From positions 372,001-436,000 of the forward strand of contig NZ_CANMPM010000001.1 of assembly GCF_947499845.1 (NCBI RefSeq): a stretch of DNA of 64,000 nucleotides, read 5' to 3'. This DNA is from an uncultured Pseudokineococcus sp. GTDB taxonomy: Bacteria > Actinomycetota > Actinomycetes > Actinomycetales > Quadrisphaeraceae. The position numbers and the translations under genes are program-made. Positions 17,757 through 46,495 of the stretch are shown here, piece by piece (the first letter of the stretch is position 1; each line of letters begins with the position of its first letter). The notes beneath the pieces are model-generated. The model made no database searches, was not told the DNA's origin, and saw only the letters and a program-made list of their open reading frames with translations.

Positions 17757-18656
17757 GTGCACGGCACCGCCGGGCGGACGTCGCTCCCGCCCGTGCCGCA
17801 GCCCGCCGCCCCGCCCGCTCCCGGGCGGGGCGGCGGGCTGCTCGCGTGGTCGCGGGCGCTCCCCGGTCGGGGCGGCGGCAGCGGGTCCCCCCCGGGCGTC
17901 GGCGCCGCGCGCGGGGCGGTGCTCGCGCTCACCTCGCGCGCCGGCGCCGGGTGGGCGCCCCCCGGGGCCGGCGGCGTCCCACCGGGGCCCTACGACGGCC
18001 TCGACCTCGCCCTGCACGTCGGGGACGACGAGGCGGCCGTGCGCGCCTCGCGGCGCGCGCTCGCCGACGAGCTCGCGGGCCGCGGCGCCCGCGAGGTGCG
18101 CTACCTCCAGCAGGTCCACGGCGCCGACGTCCTCGTCGTCGACGAGGTGGGCCCGGGCGGTGCCGACGAGGTCCCCGACGCGCCGGCCGTCGACGCCGCC
18201 GTCACGGCCGTCCCCGGGGTGGCGCTCGCCGTCCTCGTCGCCGACTGCGTGCCCGTGGTGATGGCCGACCCCGTCGCCGGGGTGGTGGGCGTGGCCCACG
18301 CCGGGCGCCGCGGCGCGCTGCTCGGCGCGCCCGTGCGCGCGGTGGAGGCGATGCGCGGGCTCGGCGCCCGCGACGTGGTCGCCGTCCTCGGCCCCAGCAT
18401 CTGCGCGCGCTGCTACGAGGTGCCGGCGGACCTGCGCGCGGCGGTGGCGGCCGAGCACCCCGTCGGTGCGAGCACGACGTGGGAGGGCGCCCCGTCGCTC
18501 GACGTCGCGGCCCTCGTGCTCGAGCAGCTCGCCGCCGCGGGCGTCCGCGCGGAGCAGGTGCCCGGGTGCACGGCCGAGCGCGCCGACCTCTGGTCCTACC
18601 GCCGCGACGGCGCGGCGAGCGGCCGCACGGCCGGCCTCGCGTGGGTGCCGGCGTGA
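17757..18656 (+). CDS. pgeF: purine nucleoside phosphorylase / laccase-domain protein (PgeF-like, YfiH family)
   Basis: Member of the YfiH/DUF152 copper-oxidase-like family. Its enterobacterial member PgeF edits mis-made UDP-MurNAc-peptides, and others act as purine nucleoside phosphorylases. The 299-residue product shows QQVHGADVLVVDE, ADCVPVVMADP, GVAHAGRRG and GPSICARCYEVP, the family's metal-site motifs (His, Cys, His). The first 60 residues are Gly/Pro-rich and likely not part of the fold, so the true start may be later. Its place directly after ftsZ is the standard order, which fits a cell-wall role. Confidence 0.88.
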   Translation: MHGTAGRTSLPPVPQPAAPPAPGRGGGLLAWSRALPGRGGGSGSPPGVGAARGAVLALTSRAGAGWAPPGAGGVPPGPYDGLDLALHVGDDEAAVRASRRALADELAGRGAREVRYLQQVHGADVLVVDEVGPGGADEVPDAPAVDAAVTAVPGVALAVLVADCVPVVMADPVAGVVGVAHAGRRGALLGAPVRAVEAMRGLGARDVVAVLGPSICARCYEVPADLRAAVAAEHPVGASTTWEGAPSLDVAALVLEQLAAAGVRAEQVPGCTAERADLWSYRRDGAASGRTAGLAWVPA

Positions 18657-34445: not shown

Positions 34446-36872
34446 TCAGCCGCCGAGGTAGGCCGCGAGGTGCTGCCCGGTGAGCGTGGAGCCGTCGGCG
34501 ACGAGCTCGGCGGGCGTGCCCTCGAAGACGACGCGGCCGCCGTCGCGCCCCGCTCCGGGCCCCATGTCGACGACGCGGTCGGCGTGCGCGACGACGGCCT
34601 GGTGGTGCTCGACGACGACGACCGACGTCCCCTCGTCGACGAGCCGGTCCAGCAGGCCGAGGAGGTGCTCGACGTCCGCGGGGTGCAGGCCGGTCGTGGG
34701 CTCGTCGAGGACGAGGACCCCGCCGGGGGACGCCATCGCCGTCGCGAGGCGCAGCCGCTGGCGCTCGCCGCCGGACAGGGTCGTCAGCGGCTGCCCCAGC
34801 CGCAGGTAGCCCAGCCCGACGGCGTCGAGGCGGGCGAGGACGGCGTGGGCGGCCGGCACGCGGGTCTCCCGGTGCTCGGAGGCGGGGCCGAAGAAGGTCA
34901 CGGCCTCGGCGACCGGCATCTCGAGCACCTCACTGATGTCCTTCCCCCCGAGGCGGTGGTCGAGCACCGAGGCGTCGAAGCGGCGGCCCTCGCACGCCTC
35001 GCACGTCGTCGACACCCCGCCGCCGACGGCGAGGTCGACGTAGACGGCGCCCGCGCCGGCGCACACGGGGCACGCCCCGGCCGAGTTGGCGCTGAAGAGG
35101 GCCGGCTTCACGCCGTTCGCCCTCGCGAAGGCCTTGCGGACCGGCTCGAGCAGCCCGGTCCACGTCGCCGGGTTGCTCCGCCGGGAGCCCTTGATGGGCG
35201 TCTGGTCGACCCGCACCACGGGCCGCCCGTCGACCTCCCGGGGCAGCGAGCCGTGGACGAGCGAGCTCTTGCCCGACCCGGCGACGCCCGTGACGACGAG
35301 GAGGACGCCCAGCGGGAGGTCGACGTCGACGTCGCGCAGGTTGTGCCGCGTGGCCCCGCGCACCTCGAGCACGCCCGTCGGCGTGCGCACGCGCTCCTTG
35401 AGCGGCGTCCGGTCCGCGAGGTGGCGGCCCGTGAGCGTGTCGCTCGCCCGCAGCTCGTCGACGGTGCCCTCGAAGCAGACGGTGCCGCCGGCCGAGCCGG
35501 CGCCGGGTCCGAGGTCGACGACGTGGTCGGCCACGGCGACGACCTCGGGCTTGTGCTCGACGACGAGCACGGTGTTGCCCTTGTCGCGCAGGCGCCGCAG
35601 CAGCGCCGTGAGCCGCTGCACGTCGTGCGGGTGCAGGCCGCTGCTCGGCTCGTCGAAGACGTAGGTGACGTCGGTGAGCGAGGAGCCCAGGTGGCGCACC
35701 ATCTTCGTGCGCTGGGACTCCCCGCCCGACAGCGTGCCGGTGGCCCGGTCGAGGGTGAGGTAGCCCAGCCCCACCTCGACGAAGGAGTCGAGCAGCCCCT
35801 GCAGCGCCGCCAGCAGCGGGGCGACGGACGGCTCGTCGAGCCCGCGGAGCCAGGCGGCGACGTCGGTGACCTGCAGCGCGCAGACGTCCGCGATGGAGCG
35901 GCCCGCCACCCGCGAGGAGCGCGCGCCCTCGGAGAGCCGGGTGCCGTGGCACGCGGGGCAGGGCGCGAAGGTGGCGGCGCGCTCGACGAAGGCGCGCACG
36001 TGCGGCTGCAGAGACTCGACGTCCTTGGACAGGAAGGACCTGCGGATCTTGGGGACGAGCCCCTCGTAGGTGAGGTTGACGCCGTCGACGACGACCTTCG
36101 TCGGCTCCTTGTGGAGCAGGTCGTGCAGCTCGGCGTCGGTGAACTCGCCGACGGGCTTGGTCGGGTCGACGAAGCCCGAGCCCCGGAAGATGCGCGCGTA
36201 CCAGCCCTCCGTGCTGTAGCCGGGCACGGTGATGGCGCCCTCGTCCAGCGACAGGGAGGCGTCGTAGAGGGCCGTCAGGTCGATGTCGTCGACGCGGCCG
36301 AGGCCCTCGCACCGCGGGCACATGCCGCCCGTCACGGTGAAGCTCCGGCGCACCGCCTTCGCGTCGCCGACCCTCACGGCTCCGCTGCCGCTCGCCGACG
36401 CCACGTTGAACGAGTAGGCCTGCGGCCCGCCGAGGTGCGGCTCGGCGAGCCGGCTGAAGAGGATGCGCAGCATCGCGTTCGCGTCGGTGGCCGTGCCGAC
36501 GGTCGAGCGGGCGTTCGCGCCCATCCGCTCCTGGTCGACGACGATCGCCGTCGTCAGGCCGTCGAGGACGTCGACGTCGGGGCGCGCCCGGCCGGGCATG
36601 AGGCCCTGGAGGAAGGCGCTGTAGGTCTCGTCGACGAGGCGCTGCGACTCCGCGGCGATGGTGCCGAACACGAGCGAGCTCTTGCCCGACCCCGAGACGC
36701 CCGTGACGACGGTGATCCGGCGCTTGGGCAGCTCGACCGAGACGTCGCGCAGGGTGTTCTCACGGGCGCCGTGCACGCGGATGAGGTCGTGGCCGTCGGC
36801 GGGGTGCACGGGGCCGGCGGCGGCCGGCCCGTCGGTCGGCCCGGCGGTGGGCCCAGCAGGGGCGACGGCCAT
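34446..36872 (-). CDS. UvrA-like ABC ATPase (UvrA2/DrrC type)
   Basis: UvrA paralogue with two ABC ATPase modules, no transmembrane part. The 808-residue protein has Walker A GVSGSGKSS (K64), the zinc modules CPRCEGLG and CPACHGTR, signature LSGGESQRTKMV, a second Walker A GVAGSGKSS, a third CxxC module (CPVCAGAG with CEACEGRR) and signature LSGGERQRLRLA. At about 800 residues it is shorter than true UvrA (about 950), which fits the UvrA2 class linked to resistance to DNA-binding drugs and to damage tolerance. ATG with SD GGAGGA on the minus strand. It lies against the direction of the his genes, splitting hisB from hisH. Confidence 0.9.
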   Translation of the reverse strand: MAVAPAGPTAGPTDGPAAAGPVHPADGHDLIRVHGARENTLRDVSVELPKRRITVVTGVSGSGKSSLVFGTIAAESQRLVDETYSAFLQGLMPGRARPDVDVLDGLTTAIVVDQERMGANARSTVGTATDANAMLRILFSRLAEPHLGGPQAYSFNVASASGSGAVRVGDAKAVRRSFTVTGGMCPRCEGLGRVDDIDLTALYDASLSLDEGAITVPGYSTEGWYARIFRGSGFVDPTKPVGEFTDAELHDLLHKEPTKVVVDGVNLTYEGLVPKIRRSFLSKDVESLQPHVRAFVERAATFAPCPACHGTRLSEGARSSRVAGRSIADVCALQVTDVAAWLRGLDEPSVAPLLAALQGLLDSFVEVGLGYLTLDRATGTLSGGESQRTKMVRHLGSSLTDVTYVFDEPSSGLHPHDVQRLTALLRRLRDKGNTVLVVEHKPEVVAVADHVVDLGPGAGSAGGTVCFEGTVDELRASDTLTGRHLADRTPLKERVRTPTGVLEVRGATRHNLRDVDVDLPLGVLLVVTGVAGSGKSSLVHGSLPREVDGRPVVRVDQTPIKGSRRSNPATWTGLLEPVRKAFARANGVKPALFSANSAGACPVCAGAGAVYVDLAVGGGVSTTCEACEGRRFDASVLDHRLGGKDISEVLEMPVAEAVTFFGPASEHRETRVPAAHAVLARLDAVGLGYLRLGQPLTTLSGGERQRLRLATAMASPGGVLVLDEPTTGLHPADVEHLLGLLDRLVDEGTSVVVVEHHQAVVAHADRVVDMGPGAGRDGGRVVFEGTPAELVADGSTLTGQHLAAYLGG

Positions 36873-36980
36873 GGCGGGGTCCTCCGAGGGGTGCGGACCG
36901 CCCCGGCGGCGGCCCGTCGGCTTCCTACCGCACACCTCCGACGGCGGGAAGGGCGCGCGAGGCCGGACGCCGTCCGCACC

Positions 36981-36995
36981 TACGCTGGTGCGGTG
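36981..36995 (+). promoter_or_regulatory. leaderless-type promoter of hisH
   Basis: TACGCT (36981-36986), 6 nt, then GTG (36993). No SD. This would restart transcription of the his genes after the oppositely oriented UvrA-like gene. Confidence 0.58.
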
Positions 36996-37646
36996 ACCTC
37001 CCCGCGCGTCGTCGTGCTCGACCACGGCTCGGGCAACGTCCGCTCCGCCGTCCGCGCCCTCGAGGCGACGGGCGCCGACGTCGTCCTGACGGGGGACCGT
37101 GCGGCCGCCGTCGCCGCCGACGGCCTCGTCGTCCCCGGCGTCGGCGCCTTCGCGTCCGTGGCCCGGGACCTGCGCGCCGTCGGCGGCCACGAGGTCGTGG
37201 CCGAGCGGCTGGCGGCCGGTCGGCCCGTGCTGGGGATCTGCGTCGGCCTCCAGGTGCTCTTCGGCCGAGGGCTGGAGCACGCCGACGACCCCGCCTCCGC
37301 CGCCGAGGGGCTGGGGCTCTGGCCCGGCGACGTCGCCCGGCTGCCCGCCGCCGTCGTCCCGCACATGGGCTGGAACACCGTCGAGGCGCCGGCCGGGTCC
37401 GTGCTCTTCGGCGAGGACCCCGACCCCGAGGAGCGGTACTACTTCGTGCACTCCTTCGCCGTGCAGGAGTGGCGCGGGCCGTCCACGGCGGGGGTCACCT
37501 GGTCCGAGCACGGCACCCGCTTCGTCGCCGCCGTCGAGGACGGGCCCCTGTCGGCCACGCAGTTCCACCCGGAGAAGTCCGGCGACGCCGGCCAGCGCCT
37601 GCTGCGGCGCTGGGTCGCCGCGCTGGGCGACGGGGGAGCGCGGTGA
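36993..37646 (+). CDS. hisH: imidazole glycerol phosphate synthase glutaminase subunit HisH
   Basis: Class I glutamine amidotransferase that supplies ammonia to HisF for IGP formation. The 217-residue protein has DHGSGNVRSA at the start, the nucleophile Cys83 in LGICVGLQVLFG, and the catalytic pair His192 and Glu194 in QFHPEKSG. hisF is not in the window, so the partner must be encoded elsewhere. GTG start chosen from the family N-terminus and an upstream -10-like hexamer. GTGA overlap with a small membrane-protein gene. Confidence 0.95.
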   Translation: MTSPRVVVLDHGSGNVRSAVRALEATGADVVLTGDRAAAVAADGLVVPGVGAFASVARDLRAVGGHEVVAERLAAGRPVLGICVGLQVLFGRGLEHADDPASAAEGLGLWPGDVARLPAAVVPHMGWNTVEAPAGSVLFGEDPDPEERYYFVHSFAVQEWRGPSTAGVTWSEHGTRFVAAVEDGPLSATQFHPEKSGDAGQRLLRRWVAALGDGGAR

Positions 37647-40637: not shown

Positions 40638-41699
40638 TCAGGTCCGGCCGGCGGCGGCCCGCTCCCGGGCCGCCGCCACCGCCGGCGCGCTGAGGGAGGC
40701 CAGCATCGCGTCCGAGGCGTCCAGCGCCGCGCGGTCGGTGGTGCTCGACGTCGCCATGACCTCCTCGGCCCCCGTGGCGTCGACGAGGCGCGCCAGCACC
40801 CGCTCCACCTCGTCGGGCGCGCCGGCGACCGTGGTGCGCCCGGCGGTCTCCAGGTGCCGGCGCTCGGAGCCGGTGGGGCGCCGCTGCCGCAGGGCCTCCA
40901 CCGGCTCCAGCGGCGGGAAGGCGCCCCGGGTGCGGGCCTCGGCCATGGCCCACGCCTCGGGGAGCGCCAGGTCGGCCGCCGCGCGCGCGTCGTCGGCGAC
41001 GAGGACGTCCAGCGCCACGACCACGCGGGGTCGTGGCTCGCGCGCGGTGGGGACGAAGTCCCTGCGGTAGCCGGCGAGGGCCTCCAGCGCCGCGGCCGCC
41101 CCGTCCCCGTCCCGCTCGGGGTCGAGGAGCGGCGCCAGCAGCGGCCCGCCGACGACGACGGGCAGCCCGAGCCGCGCCGCCACGCCGAGGCCGGCGCCGG
41201 TGGCGAGGACGAGCAGCGGCACGTCGGCGCCCTGCGGACGCGCGGTGACCTCCGCGCCGCCGTCCAGGTGGGCCCGCAGCTCCTCGAGGTCCCGCGCGAA
41301 GGCGTCGTCGTCCGCCGCGACGCCCTCGCGCCGCAACGCGCGTCGCACCGGGGCGGTGAAGCCGGGGGAGCGCCCCACGCCGAGGTCCACCCGCCCGGGG
41401 TGCAGGGCCGCCAGCGTCGCGAACTGCTCCGCGACGACGAGGGGCGCGTGGTTGGGCAGCATGACGCCGCCCGAGCCCACCCGCAGGTGCGCCGTCGCCG
41501 CCAGCACCGCGCCGGCGAGCACCGCCGGCGCCGAGCCCGCGACGCCCGGGACGGCGTGGTGCTCGGCCACCCAGAAGCGGCGGAGCCCGAGCGCCTCGGC
41601 GCGCCGCGACCGCTCGACGACCCCCGTCAGGGCGAGGGCGTCGGGCTCGCCGGTGCGCGTGCGGGCGCGGTCGAGCAGGGACAGCGGGACGTCGAGCAC
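40638..41699 (-). CDS. LLM-class flavin-dependent oxidoreductase
   Basis: Luciferase-like monooxygenase family protein of 353 residues, single-component type, using FMN or F420. Visible markers are VPLSLLDRA at the N-terminus, WVAEHHAVPGVAGSAPAV, LRVGSGGVMLPNHAPLVVAEQFATL, GRVDLGVGRSPGF and a C-terminal GAPDEVERVLARLVDATGAEEVM. The substrate cannot be read. The GTG at 41699 is the only start codon close to the conserved N-terminus; no good SD is visible, so the start is moderately secure. Divergent from the S4-domain gene. Confidence 0.9.
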   Translation of the reverse strand: MLDVPLSLLDRARTRTGEPDALALTGVVERSRRAEALGLRRFWVAEHHAVPGVAGSAPAVLAGAVLAATAHLRVGSGGVMLPNHAPLVVAEQFATLAALHPGRVDLGVGRSPGFTAPVRRALRREGVAADDDAFARDLEELRAHLDGGAEVTARPQGADVPLLVLATGAGLGVAARLGLPVVVGGPLLAPLLDPERDGDGAAAALEALAGYRRDFVPTAREPRPRVVVALDVLVADDARAAADLALPEAWAMAEARTRGAFPPLEPVEALRQRRPTGSERRHLETAGRTTVAGAPDEVERVLARLVDATGAEEVMATSSTTDRAALDASDAMLASLSAPAVAAARERAAAGRT

Positions 41700-41770: not shown

Positions 41771-41786
41771 CAGGATGGCGGCCGTG
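41771..41786 (+). promoter_or_regulatory. leaderless-type promoter of the S4-domain gene
   Basis: CAGGAT (41771-41776) is followed by 7 nt and GTG (41784). The same hexamer precedes priA. An ATG overlaps the hexamer itself (41775) and is the alternative start. Confidence 0.4.
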
Positions 41787-42071
41787 GACGACGCCGACGC
41801 CAGCACGCCCGACGCCAGCACGCCCGACGCCGGCCCCGCAGACGGCGACCCGGCGGGCCCCGAGCCGGCGGTCGTGCCGGTCGAGGGCGGGATCCGGCTG
41901 GGCCAGCTCCTCAAGCTCGCCTCCCTCGTCGACACGGGCGCCGACGCCAAGGAGGCGCTCGCGGCGGGCGTCGTGCGCGTCAACGGCGAGGTCGAGGTGC
42001 GCCGGGGTCGCCAGCTGGCCCCCGGGGACGTCGTCGCCGTCGACGGGGCCGGCGCCGTCCGCGTGGGCTGA
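41784..42071 (+). CDS. small S4 RNA-binding domain protein
   Basis: About 95 residues: an acidic N-terminus with a repeated DASTP unit (15-bp DNA repeat), then a single S4 domain, IRLGQLLKLASLVDTGADAKEALAAGVVRVNGEVEVRRGRQLAPGDVV. It resembles YbcJ/YaaA-type stand-alone S4 proteins that bind structured RNA; the exact target is unknown. The start is either the ATG at 41775 or the GTG at 41784; the latter sits 7 nt after CAGGAT and has no SD. It is a short gene between the LLM and PKS genes. Confidence 0.82.
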   Translation: MDDADASTPDASTPDAGPADGDPAGPEPAVVPVEGGIRLGQLLKLASLVDTGADAKEALAAGVVRVNGEVEVRRGRQLAPGDVVAVDGAGAVRVG

Positions 42072-42196
42072 GCGTCGGCCCGGGGCCGCCCCGCCACGGG
42101 GGCCGTGGAGCGCCCGCCGTCGCGACCCGGCGGGGCGCGGCGCAGGATGGGTGGCGCCGCGCAGCCCAGCGGCGGCGCGCGCCACGAAGGAGCCCC

Positions 42197-43321
42197 ATGA
42201 CCCGCATCGTCTCCGTCGGCACCGCCGTGCCGCCGCGCACGTCGGCCCAGGCGGACATCACCGACGCCTTCAGCCAGGTCATCGCCTCGGGCGGCGAGCT
42301 CGACGGCCCCCGTCGCGCCCTGCTGCACCGCCTGCACGGCAACACCGGGGTCCGCCAGCGGCACCTCGCCCTGCCGCTCGAGGAGTACCCGCAGCTCGAC
42401 GGCTTCCGCTCCGCCAACGACGCCTACGTGCGGGTCGGGCTCGAGCTGGGGGAGCGCGCCGTGCGGCAGGCCCTCGAGCGCGTCGGCCTCACGCCCCAGG
42501 ACGTCGACGTCCTCGTCCTGGCCAGCACCACGGGCGTCGCGGCGCCGTCGCTGGACGCCCGCCTCGTCGAGCCGCTGGGGCTCCGGCCGGACGTCAAGCG
42601 CATGCCGCTCTTCGGCCTCGGCTGCGTGGCCGGCGCGGCGGGCGTCGCCCGCGTGCACGACCACCTCCGCGGCGACCCGGACGCCGTCGCCGTGCTCCTC
42701 GGCGTCGAGCTCTGCTCGCTCACGGTGCAGCGCGACGACACGTCCACCGCCAACCTCGTGGCCTCCGGGCTCTTCGGCGACGGCGCCGCGGCCGTCGTCC
42801 TCCTCGGCGACCGGCGGGCCGCCGAGCTGGGGCTGCCCGGCCCCGAGGTCGTGGGCGCCCGCAGCCGCTTCTACCCCGACACCGCGGGCGTCATGGGCTG
42901 GGACGTCGGCGGCAGCGGGTTCCGCATCGTCCTCACGACGAGCGTCACCGACGTCGTCCGGCAGTACCTGGCCGACGACGTCACCGGCTTCCTCGGCGCC
43001 CACGACCTCGCGACGGGGGACGTCGCCCGCTGGGTCGCCCACCCGGGGGGGCCCAAGGTGCTCGACGCGGTGACCGAGGTCCTCGACCTGCCCGACGACG
43101 CCCTCGCCCGCTCCTGGGAGAACCTCGCCGACAACGGCAACATGTCGTCCGTCTCGGTGCTCCACGTCCTGGCCGCGACGCTCGCCGAGCCGCCCGCCGA
43201 CGGTGACCACGCGCTGATGTTCGCCATGGGGCCCGGCTTCTGCGCCGAGCTGGTCCTCCTCCGGTGGCCCGAGGCCGCGGCGGCGGGCGACGGCCGGGCC
43301 GGCGCCGCGGTGGCGGCGTGA
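42197..43321 (+). CDS. type III polyketide synthase (alkylpyrone/alkylresorcinol type)
   Basis: Chalcone-synthase-fold enzyme that extends a starter acyl-CoA with malonyl-CoA. The 374-residue protein has the complete Cys-His-Asn triad: Cys143 in GLGCVAGAAG, His282 in VAHPGGPKVL and Asn315 in DNGNMSS, plus GFGP-like MGPGFCAELV at the end. Presence of Asn and the GNMSS motif separates it from FabH. Coupling to an ICMT-like methyltransferase matches bpsA-bpsB of Bacillus and srsA-srsB of Streptomyces, which make methylated alkylpyrones or phenolic lipids. The product here is inferred by that parallel. ATG with SD GAAGGAG. Confidence 0.9.
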   Translation: MTRIVSVGTAVPPRTSAQADITDAFSQVIASGGELDGPRRALLHRLHGNTGVRQRHLALPLEEYPQLDGFRSANDAYVRVGLELGERAVRQALERVGLTPQDVDVLVLASTTGVAAPSLDARLVEPLGLRPDVKRMPLFGLGCVAGAAGVARVHDHLRGDPDAVAVLLGVELCSLTVQRDDTSTANLVASGLFGDGAAAVVLLGDRRAAELGLPGPEVVGARSRFYPDTAGVMGWDVGGSGFRIVLTTSVTDVVRQYLADDVTGFLGAHDLATGDVARWVAHPGGPKVLDAVTEVLDLPDDALARSWENLADNGNMSSVSVLHVLAATLAEPPADGDHALMFAMGPGFCAELVLLRWPEAAAAGDGRAGAAVAA

Positions 43322-43842
43322 GCGTCGGGGTCTACGCCGTCGTCGTCCTGCTCGTCGCGGTCGAGCGGCTGGTCGAGCTCGTCGTCTCGCGCCGCAACCT
43401 GGCGTGGGCGCTGCGCCGTGGCGGGTTCGAGGCCGGGCGCGGCCACTTCCCCGTCATGGTCGCCCTCCACACGGGCCTGCTCGTGGCCTGCCTCGTGGAG
43501 GTCGTCGTGGCCGACCGGCCCTTCGTGCCGGCGCTCGGGTGGACGATGCTCGCGCTGCTCGTCCTCACCGAGGGGACGCGCGCATGGGTCATCGCCACGC
43601 TGGGGCGGCAGTGGAACACCCGGGTCGTCGTCGTGCCCGGCCTGCGCCGGGTCACCCGCGGCCCCTACCGCTGGCTGAGCCACCCCAACTACGTCGTCGT
43701 CGCCGTCGAGGGCGTCGCCCTGCCGCTGGTCCACACCGCGTGGGTCACCGCCGTCGTCTTCACGGTGCTCGACGCCGCGCTCCTGCTGCTCGTGCGCATC
43801 CCGGCCGAGGAGCGGGCCCTGGCCCGCCTGCGCACCTCCTGA
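43318..43842 (+). CDS. ICMT-like (isoprenylcysteine carboxyl methyltransferase family) methyltransferase
   Basis: Integral membrane methyltransferase of 174 residues with about four or five spans and the family's C-terminal SAM region, ALGRQWNTRVVVVPGLRRVTRGPYRWLSHPNYVVVAVEG. Bacterial members beside type III PKS genes O-methylate the polyketide (BpsB, SrsB) rather than prenyl-cysteine. The GTG overlaps the PKS stop (GTGA), giving a tight two-gene operon. No flavin hydroxylase gene (SrsC-like) adjoins it. A 21-bp hairpin lies 33 nt after the stop. Confidence 0.9.
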   Translation: MSVGVYAVVVLLVAVERLVELVVSRRNLAWALRRGGFEAGRGHFPVMVALHTGLLVACLVEVVVADRPFVPALGWTMLALLVLTEGTRAWVIATLGRQWNTRVVVVPGLRRVTRGPYRWLSHPNYVVVAVEGVALPLVHTAWVTAVVFTVLDAALLLLVRIPAEERALARLRTS

Positions 43843-43875: not shown

Positions 43876-43921
43876 ACGCACGAGGGGCCCGGGAGCAGGT
43901 GCTCCCGGGCCCCTCGTGCGT
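43876..43921. terminator. strong bidirectional terminator
   Basis: Perfect 21-bp inverted repeat (left arm 43876-43896, right arm 43901-43921) with a 4-nt loop AGGT, placed between the stops of the convergent methyltransferase and catalase genes. It is the most stable hairpin noted in the window. No T-run. Confidence 0.88.
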
Positions 43922-43933
43922 GCGGTCGAGCGG

Positions 43934-45457
43934 TCAGCGCTTCTCGGCCTCGTCGCCCGGCGTCGTGGGCGAGGCGCTCGTCGTGGGGGCCGACGACGGC
44001 TTCTGCTCGCGCACGGCCTCCTCGATGCGGTCGCCCGTCTCCTTGTCGATGTTCCGCCAGTAGGCGAAGGCGCGCTCGAGCACCGGCTCGGAGACGCCGT
44101 TGAGCAGGTGGCCCGACACGTTGGTCACGAGGCGGCTGCGCGCGCCGTCGTCCATGACCTCGCGGACGAGCGTGCCGGCCTGGCCCCAGTCGTCGTCCTC
44201 GGCGTGGTCGAGGTAGGCCGTGCGCGCCGTCGGGCCGCCGGCCGTCCACCCGGGCGTCTCGCCGGCGCGCCGGGGGTCGGCCACCGGTCCGCCGACGCTG
44301 CTCGGCTGGTAGACGGGCTGCGTCGGGGGGTTCCAGCGGTACGCCATCGCCCCCTCCTTGGCGTACGTGCCGAGCGGGGCCACGGGCGCGTTGACCGGGA
44401 GCTGGGTGTAGTTGGTGCCGATGCGGTACCGGTGCGCGTCGGCGTAGCTGAACATCCGGCCCATGAGCATCTTGTCGGGGCTCGGCCCGATGCCCGGCAC
44501 CATGTTGTTGACGTCGAAGGCGGCCTGCTCGATCTGCGCGTGGAAGTTCTCGGGGTTCGTGTCCAGCGTCATCCGGCCGACCTCGACCAACGGGTAGTCC
44601 TTCTGCGACACGGTCTTCGTCACGTCGAAGATGTTGTGCCGGTAGGACTCCGCCTCGTCGACGGGGATGACCTGGACGTGCATCGTCCAGCTCGGGAAGT
44701 CGCCCTCGGCGATCTTCGCGAAGAGGTCCTGGCGGTGGTGGTCGGGCGACGCCCCGGCGATGCGGTCGGCCTCGTCCTGCTCGAGGAACTCGTTGCCCTG
44801 GTCGGTCTTGAGGTGGTACTTGACCCAGAAGGCCTCGCCCTCGGCGTTGACCCACTGGAACGTGTGCGAGCCGTAGCCGTTCATGTGGCGCCAGGTGCGC
44901 GGCACGCCGCGGTCACCCATGAGGACGACGACCTGGTGAGCGCTCTCGGGGGAGAGGGTCCAGAAGTCCCACTGCATGTCGTTGTCGCGCAGGCCGGACG
45001 CGGGCAGGCGCTTCTGCGAGCGGATGAAGTCCTGGAACTTCATGGCGTCCTTGACGAAGAACACCGGCGTGTTGTTGCCGACGAGGTCGTAGTTGCCCTC
45101 GCTCGTGTAGAACTTCAGCGCGAAGCCGCGGGGGTCGCGCCAGGTGTCCGGCGTCCCCTGCTCGCCGGCCACCGTCGAGAAGCGCGCCAGCATCCGGGTG
45201 GTCGTGCCGGGCTGGAAGAGGGCGGCGCGGGTGTACCGGCTCACGTCGCCGGTGACCTCGAAGGTGCCGAAGGCGCCGCCGCCCTTGGCGTGGACGACGC
45301 GCTCGGGCACGCGCTCGCGGTTGAACTGCGCCATCTTCTCGACGAGGTAGTGGTCCTGGAGCAGCGTCCCGCCGCCCGGGCCCTGCGTCATCGAGTGCTC
45401 GTCGCTGCCGGCGGGGATGCCGGCGTTGCTGGTGGTCCAGGTCGCCTCGGCGGTCAC
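43934..45457 (-). CDS. katA: monofunctional haem catalase
   Basis: Dismutates hydrogen peroxide in the cytoplasm. The 507-residue protein is a small-subunit catalase, with active-site His56 in [17 protein letters not shown], the distal Asn in [14 protein letters not shown] (128-129), and the proximal haem-ligand Tyr in [14 protein letters not shown]. The GTG at 45457 (minus strand) has SD AGGAGGA and gives the normal N-terminus; a longer open frame upstream is discounted. It lies downstream of a Fur-type regulator in the same direction, as catR-catA in Streptomyces coelicolor, which suggests peroxide-controlled expression. Confidence 0.95.
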
Positions 45458-45584
45458 GGTGGGTCCTCCTGGTGGTCTGCGGGGGGAGGTCGCCGGGACG
45501 ACGACCTGCACGCCACCACCGTGCGCCGCGGGGGACCGGCCCGCATCCCCGGAGGGCGCCTCCCAGCCGGCTCCCCGCCCGCGC

Positions 45585-46061
45585 TCAGCGGGCGGAGCAG
45601 CGCGAGCAGGTGCCCCAGTAGATGACCTCGGCCTCGTCGACGACGAACCCGTCCAGGGCGGCACCGCCGCCGGTGCCCGCGCCGCGGGGGCGCGCGGGCT
45701 CGAGGCACGGCGCGGCCCCGGTGGCGCAGTCGACGTCGCGCACCTCGCCGCAGCCCCGGCACACGAGGTGGTGGTGGTTGTCGTCCACGCGCAGCTCGAA
45801 GCGCGCGGGGGAGCCCGCCGGCTCGATGCGCCGGACGAGCCCGGCGCGGTGCAGGGCGCCGAGGACGTCGTACACCGCCTGCACGGAGACGCTGCCGATG
45901 CGCTCGCGGACGCCGCGGGCGACGTCGTCGGCGTCGGCGTGGGGCTGGTCGGCCAGGACGGCGAGGGCCGCGACGCGCGGCGCGGTCGCCCGCAGGCCGG
46001 CGCCGCGGAGCAGCGCGGTGCCCTGGGCGGGCGCCGTCGGCGGGCCGGCGGGGGTGCTCAC
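45585..46061 (-). CDS. Fur-family peroxide regulator (CatR/PerR-like)
   Basis: Fur-family repressor of 158 residues. The N-terminal winged helix (about 18-90; [26 protein letters not shown]) binds DNA. The C-terminal half carries HHH at 96-98 and two CxxC zinc pairs, C101-C104 and C152-C155. Its position directly upstream of catalase matches the CatR-catA pair, so peroxide sensing is inferred. The GTG start lies 6 nt after TCAGGT with a TTGACG 17 bp further up, a complete leaderless promoter. A 127-nt gap separates it from the catalase gene. Confidence 0.92.
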
Positions 46062-46096
46062 CGGCTCACCTGACCACCCAGTCTGGAACCCGTCAA
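46061..46096 (-). promoter_or_regulatory. promoter of the Fur-family regulator gene
   Basis: On the minus strand TTGACG (46096-46091), 17-bp spacer, TCAGGT (46073-46068), then 6 nt and the GTG start (46061). Autoregulation would place an operator in or near the spacer; no clean palindrome is visible there. Confidence 0.62.
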
Positions 46097-46126
46097 GCGA
46101 AGGGGGCCGCCCGGTGGCGGGGCGGG

Positions 46127-46495
46127 TCAGCGGACGGGCCCGGTGAGGCGCTCGCCGGGGCCCTGCCCCGGCGGGTCGGGCACGACGGAGGCCTCCCGGA
46201 AGGCCAGCTGGAGGGAGCGGAGCCCGTCGCGCAGCGCGCGGGCGTGCTGGTTGCCGATGTCGGGCGCCGCGGCCGTCACGAGGCCGGCGAGGGCGCCGAT
46301 GAGCACGCGCGCCTCGGCCAGGTCGAGGTGCTCGCGCGCCTCGGGCCCCTCGGCGAGGCCGCACTTCACCGCTGCGGCGCTCATGAGGTGCACGGCCGCG
46401 GTCGTGATGACCTCCACGGAGGGCACCTCGGCGATGTCGCGCAGCTCGCGCGCTCCCTCGGCCGCGGGGTCGAGCTCGGGGGTCTGGTCAGCCAT
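46127..46495 (-). CDS. DUF1844 family protein
   Basis: 122-residue protein with the DUF1844 core: VITTAAVHLMSAAAVKCGLAE, then DLAEARVLIGALAGLVTAAAPDIG and LRDGLRSLQLAFREAS. This small helical family is conserved in actinobacteria directly upstream of and divergent from infC, as here. Its function is unknown. ATG start with GGAAGG about 9 nt upstream on the minus strand. Confidence 0.9.
   Translation of the reverse strand: MADQTPELDPAAEGARELRDIAEVPSVEVITTAAVHLMSAAAVKCGLAEGPEAREHLDLAEARVLIGALAGLVTAAAPDIGNQHARALRDGLRSLQLAFREASVVPDPPGQGPGERLTGPVR

Follow-up and report, generated by a model that had tools for sequence, protein, structure and literature searches.

Actinobacterial operons of the srs/pkq type usually comprise three genes, the third of which encodes an FAD hydroxylase (srsC or pkqC), and the sections of the literature drawn on here describe how this type yields alkylresorcinols that are O-methylated and then oxidized to polyketide quinones, which serve as electron carriers and, in mycobacteria and Streptomyces, as alternative ones (PMC9927152; PMC5916927). 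What, then, does this pathway make in a bacterium in which a type III polyketide synthase (PKS) gene and an ICMT-type methyltransferase gene stand together without the third gene, as they do in the window, that is, the whole 64-kb stretch of DNA analyzed here? The answer that we regard as reasonably probable is that the pair is what remains, as a pkqAB/srsAB core, of the pathway by which actinobacteria make phenolic lipids, that the common ancestor of the window's genus lost the hydroxylase and that the lipid is left unoxidized.

The PKS gene (42197..43321, + strand) runs from an ATG start codon at 42197 to a stop codon at 43319-43321 and encodes 374 amino acids; a ribosome-binding site, AAGGAG (42187..42192, + strand), is read in the sequence four bases before the ATG, and AAGGAG or GAGGAG is also found 5' of the gene in the congeners G005, G006 and G004. 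The protein scores 82 bits with Chal_sti_synt_N and 53.5 bits with Chal_sti_synt_C of Pfam, and its catalytic triad lies at the residues named in the initial annotation, Cys143 (42623..42625), His282 (43040..43042) and Asn315 (43139..43141, all on the + strand), each of which is invariant in 10 of 10 PKSs of the window's family and in 16 of 16 sequences of a wider set. Directly downstream, with a GTG start codon at 43318, is the gene for an ICMT-type membrane O-methyltransferase of the SrsB/PkqB kind (43318..43842, + strand; 174 amino acids; Pfam ICMT, 95.7 bits), and reading frames and Pfam matches together confirm the previously proposed SrsA/SrsB-like combination of a type III PKS with an ICMT-type methyltransferase. 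Each of these two families has a single match in the 3.7-Mb genome. The GTGA overlap of the two genes (43318..43321, + strand), also reported before, can be read in the sequence and joins the PKS stop codon to the methyltransferase start; it is kept in G004, G005 and G006 as well as in G003, a member of another genus of the family in which the methyltransferase and hydroxylase genes are also closely joined, and translational coupling through this overlap is probable. The AlphaFold model of the methyltransferase has a mean pLDDT of 87.7 and its nearest fold is Ma-ICMT (4a2n), a match that is only moderate (TM 0.73/0.67, E 1.9e-3) and that weighs somewhat against the reading given above. A study of SrsB reportedly concerns decarboxylative methylation; the substrate of the present enzyme is not readable from its sequence.

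The best match of the PKS in the PDB by sequence is Pks11 of Mycobacterium tuberculosis (4jao/4jap; E 3.5e-113), with 52% identity over 348 positions and a score of 382 bits, followed among solved enzymes by the cyanobacterial resorcinol synthase CylI and by THNS (1u0m, 163 bits), which reach less than half of that score. Its AlphaFold model (mean pLDDT 90.2) likewise finds its best fold match in Pks11 (4jap, TM 0.91/0.96). Placement was examined in a quick tree of 113 rows with SH-aLRT support only, in which 32 of 110 inner branches are drawn open and from which the short rows L051, L065 and L132, the row L037 (judged to be the same contig as in the genome of L010) and repeat fetches of family loci, including the two-frame gene of G011, had been left out. 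In this tree the 12 rows of the window's family group together (SH-aLRT 96), as do, inside them, the 4 rows of the window's genus (SH-aLRT 100); Pks11 belongs to the same large group, where its neighbors are mycobacterial, and THNS lies outside all others on a very long branch. The tree, which contains Pks11 and Streptomyces operons of like make-up rather than SrsA by name, agrees with the SrsA/Pks10/Pks11 grouping, and the nearest named relatives in it, BpsA not being among its rows, are nearly all actinobacterial SrsA-type operons. The phylogenetic check that had been proposed against naphthalene-type and plant-like synthases thus places the enzyme with neither: an identity as THNS (RppA) is rejected by the 163 versus 382 bits and by the outside position of THNS, and an identity as plant chalcone or stilbene synthase by scores of 129 bits or less. 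Judged by sequence, this is an ordinary actinobacterial PKS of the SrsA/PkqA/Pks11 group. Its gene is common across the order and not rare, with a match above 400 bits to the family profile in 32 of 99 genomes drawn from the order, and all 13 genomes of the window's family carry it. In one of these, G011, the gene (L031, 8709-9841) reads in two overlapping frames, owing to a frameshift or a sequencing error.

The type of ring that such an enzyme would close has been linked to a single tryptophan. Sections of the published work report that ArsB makes resorcinols and its W281G mutant pyrones (PMC6274091), and that the equivalent of ArsB Trp281 in MMAR_2474 is Trp230 (PMC5916927). In our alignment the latter maps to Trp235 of the window's PKS (42899..42901, + strand), by which Trp279, three residues before His282 and also considered as the equivalent, is rejected. 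Trp235, linked in this way to resorcinol-type cyclization, is invariant in all 10 family sequences and all 16 of the wider set, and its position is held by Tyr in 1u0m. A resorcinol is therewith the likely ring as far as sequence can tell, although Trp235 does not settle the matter, because Pks11 shares the equivalent Trp and is described as yielding methyl-branched alkylpyrones in vitro (PMC6274091), and because CylI, a resorcinol former, has Leu at this position in the alignment. That the PKS makes alkylpyrones instead of resorcinols, and that the methyltransferase forms their methyl ethers in the manner of bpsAB, a possibility raised in the initial annotation, is an alternative that we consider rather improbable. 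It draws on Pks11 being the closest solved enzyme and on type III PKSs of Bacillus, for which aliphatic pyrones are described (PMC8086630); it is opposed by the presence of Trp235, by a published tree in which SrsA, PKS10 and PKS11 group separately from the Bacillus enzymes (PMC8086630), and by the retention in sister genera of a hydroxylase that is used on resorcinols.

No srsC-like hydroxylase adjoins the pair, as had been stated in the initial annotation and as was confirmed at the locus. Among 80 named loci, PKS, methyltransferase and FAD hydroxylase occur together in 65, PKS and methyltransferase in nine and the PKS alone in six, so that a methyltransferase orthologue stands beside the PKS in 74. 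The nine two-gene loci are of several kinds: one is cut by a contig end (L091), one has a broken hydroxylase (L064), three have the hydroxylase further downstream (L074, L100 and L103) and four have none next door (L056, L102, L106 and L111). In the genome of L106 a profile built from 12 hydroxylase sequences matched a pkqC on a different contig with a strong score of 487 bits, and the same profile gave only 62-92 bits in the genomes of L056, L102 and L111. One of the six PKS-only loci, L112, is again cut by a contig end.

Within the window's family, the hydroxylase adjoins the pair in eight of the nine genomes of other genera (G001, G002, G003 and G008-G012); it is missing next door from G007 and from each of the four genomes that represent the window's genus (G000, G004, G005 and G006). 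Searches of whole genomes gave the same picture. The hydroxylase of G003, which scores 727 bits in its own genome and 404 in G012, gave scores of 31, 28, 31 and 30 bits for the four congeners and of 59 for G007; with the 12-hydroxylase profile, which reaches 496 bits in G003, 457 in G011 and 408 in G002, the congeners scored 67, 69, 69 and 52 bits and G007 scored 89. No pkqC orthologue was thus found in the assembled genomes of the four congeners; 2-3% of the window's genome is unassembled. The 67-bit match in this genome is a protein of the geranylgeranyl reductase family (250 bits, cut-off 159), whose gene lies beside a polyprenyl diphosphate synthase gene, and a move of pkqC to another place in the genome is rejected on the basis of these searches. 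Also rejected is an assembly gap as the cause of the missing gene, since the window's contig is 437 kb long and each of the four congeners has catalase or fur after the pair. Because no hydroxylase orthologue was found in the whole genome, the unoxidized product predicted earlier is now better grounded, even though a non-homologous hydroxylase may be present elsewhere in the genome.

The fewest changes of an adjacent hydroxylase on the tree number six, with nine rows lacking it and 86 having it. This count was made on the tree without THNS; it left out the loci whose hydroxylase is more distant (L074, L100 and L103) or broken (L064) and the one with a contig end (L091), together with PKS-only loci and loci of the order with too short flanks, and it scored L106 as absent next door despite its pkqC on another contig. 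We infer that these six changes are losses. One loss common to the window's genus and G007 is rejected (p-AU 0.0002). A separate observation concerns L064 (7681-8456), where a Streptomyces PKS-methyltransferase pair is accompanied by a hydroxylase gene that has broken up into two frames and may represent this kind of loss while it is still under way.

The pair differs from its relatives in its location as well. The gene order in the window's genus is hisH, hisA, an sseB-like gene, SDR, LLM (other strand), S4, PKS, ICMT, catalase and Fur (other strand), infC and rplT, in which hisH, Fur, infC, rplT and the sseB-like gene are what we take these neighbors to be from their sequences; in G004 the block differs only in lacking catalase. 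In G013, from a neighboring family, a stretch of about 3 kb separates hisA from infC and holds none of the block genes, the three-gene operon is found elsewhere, and the fetched parts of the hisA-infC stretch in G003 and G008 contain no match to PKS, ICMT, LLM, SDR, S4 or catalase. As the block is absent from this place in G013 and from the fetched parts in G003 and G008, the pair has moved as well as lost its partner, and it occupies a new, genus-specific site between hisA and infC. Several neighbors deserve mention in their own right. The small S4-domain protein encoded directly before the PKS (41775-42071) has an acidic, repeat-rich N-terminal extension of about 38 residues, and its gene is matched in all three congeners with context. 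On the other side are catalase and, upstream of it, the Fur-family gene (43934-46271, - strand), both of which run toward the PKS-methyltransferase pair; G005 and G006 have catalase at this place and G004 lacks it. Further away, a long frame at 34446-37568 (- strand) presumably encodes a UvrA-type ABC excinuclease paralogue, comparable to drug-resistance UvrA2.

Among these neighbors, the LLM flavoenzyme (40638-41699, - strand) had been put forward as a remote substitute for the hydroxylase, which would let the pathway still end in a polyketide quinone by way of this or another replacing enzyme. The adjacency on which this idea was built stands, for the gene lies one small gene from the PKS in all three congeners in which the stretch is assembled (G000, G004 and G006), and orthologues with at least 57% identity were found only in the window's genus and in G002. 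Much else speaks against it: G002, from a sister genus, has both the LLM orthologue and pkqC; none of the 80 named loci, those lacking pkqC included, has such a gene in its flanks as fetched; it lies on the strand opposite to the pair and evolves faster than the pair (65% versus 80% identity with G004); and it scores as a member of the MsnO8 family, not as an aromatic hydroxylase. We therefore hold a replaced hydroxylase, by the LLM enzyme or another, to be unlikely. A more distant LLM relative (39-43%) is present elsewhere in the same genomes.

GC content at third positions is 99.5% in the PKS and 98.9% in the ICMT gene, and dN/dS, by a simple Nei-Gojobori count in which synonymous counts are rough at such GC content, is 0.09 against G005, 0.16 against G006 and 0.32 against G004 for the PKS and 0.12, 0.20 and 0.26, respectively, for the ICMT gene, with hisA for comparison at 0.07 against G006 and 0.18 against G004. 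The high third-position GC and the dN/dS of 0.09-0.32 between congeners identify both as real genes which, by these sequence comparisons, are under purifying selection and plainly not decaying. That the pair is a decaying remnant without a product, as the missing third gene, the broken pkqC beside the pair in one Streptomyces (L064) and the two-frame PKS of G011 in the same family might suggest, is very improbable in view of open frames, an intact triad, low dN/dS in all three within-genus comparisons and the retained GTGA overlap.

Under the reading preferred here, a phenolic-lipid pathway that has lost its hydroxylase, the PKS would load a long-chain acyl starter, extend it with malonyl-CoA and probably also methylmalonyl-CoA, and cyclize the chain; an alkylresorcinol or alkylresorcylic acid is the most likely outcome, with an alkylpyrone as a possible further product. 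Translated from the same mRNA via the GTGA overlap, the ICMT-type enzyme would then O-methylate this product at the membrane with S-adenosylmethionine, and, without the FAD hydroxylase, the chain would end at a lipid of the methoxy-alkylphenol type and not at a polyketide quinone. What the analysis shows is the identity of the genes, their catalytic residues, the structure of the operon, the placement in the group, the lack of the hydroxylase in 4 of 4 congeners and the purifying selection on the pair; substrates, ring type, methylation site, end product and role are what we infer in this scheme. The likely product, as predicted from the genes present, is an alkylresorcinol (or alkylpyrone) that carries an O-methyl group and is not converted to a polyketide quinone. 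A wider and distinctly more tentative proposal is that the hydroxylase has been lost several times, each time leaving a working PKS-methyltransferase pair, that the unoxidized methoxy-alkyl lipid is a functional end product and that an alternative respiratory quinone pathway has been turned into a membrane or antioxidant lipid pathway. On the tree, loss of the adjacent gene would require at least six changes; in most species of the window's genus, the pair lies beside a Fur-catalase pair. A genus that keeps the first two enzymes under selection without the third offers a natural test of the role of the unoxidized lipid, and it warns against predicting a quinone wherever a PKS-methyltransferase pair occurs.

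The bpsA-bpsB unit of Bacillus subtilis is a two-gene unit of PKS and ICMT-type methyltransferase, and both it and srsA-srsB had been given as parallels of the window's pair. The parallel to srsA-srsB is upheld, with the qualification that the srs/pkq unit normally has three genes and that its two-gene form represents a loss in the window's genus; the parallel to bpsA-bpsB appears less apt. In a published tree, the Bacillus enzymes fall in a separate subclade, sister to SrsA/PKS10/PKS11 (PMC8086630). With srsABC of Streptomyces griseus and pkqABC of Mycobacterium smegmatis and Streptomyces sp. MNU77, as far as these are described in the source (PMC9927152), the pair shares the PKS group, the ICMT-type gene downstream, the triad and the Trp; it differs in that no FAD hydroxylase is adjacent or was found in the genome and in its genus-specific site. 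M. tuberculosis Pks11 is like the window's PKS in sequence, fold and Trp, and the Pks11-like named loci L092, L101, L107, L108 and L110, unlike the window's pair, have no methyltransferase beside the PKS. A report on the planctomycete S. maiorica describes a two-gene methyltransferase-PKS operon that, like the present pair, is without an oxidoreductase that its relatives have; it differs in belonging to another phylum, one in which the methyltransferase precedes the PKS and the operon is likened to the hierridin cluster (PMC10896814). A literature search found no paper on this PKS-ICMT unit in the window's family, and the pair is best described, from its sequence, as a lineage-specific truncated variant of a known pathway.

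Downstream of the pair, between the converging methyltransferase and catalase genes, lies a perfect hairpin of 21 bp with a loop of 4 (43876..43921, on neither strand in particular), which had been called the strongest terminator of the window. It is indeed the strongest hairpin, being the longest of seven perfect ones with a stem of at least 11 in the 64-kb window, and the segment folds at -82.5 kcal/mol (z = -8.4); as for its function, it has no T-run and is not listed by a terminator consensus scan, and it is its position between converging genes that makes a two-way terminator without a T-run probable. G006 has a hairpin that, read by eye, shows matching changes on both arms. A second perfect hairpin, almost as long (20 bp, loop 4), is present in the window at 17798-17841.
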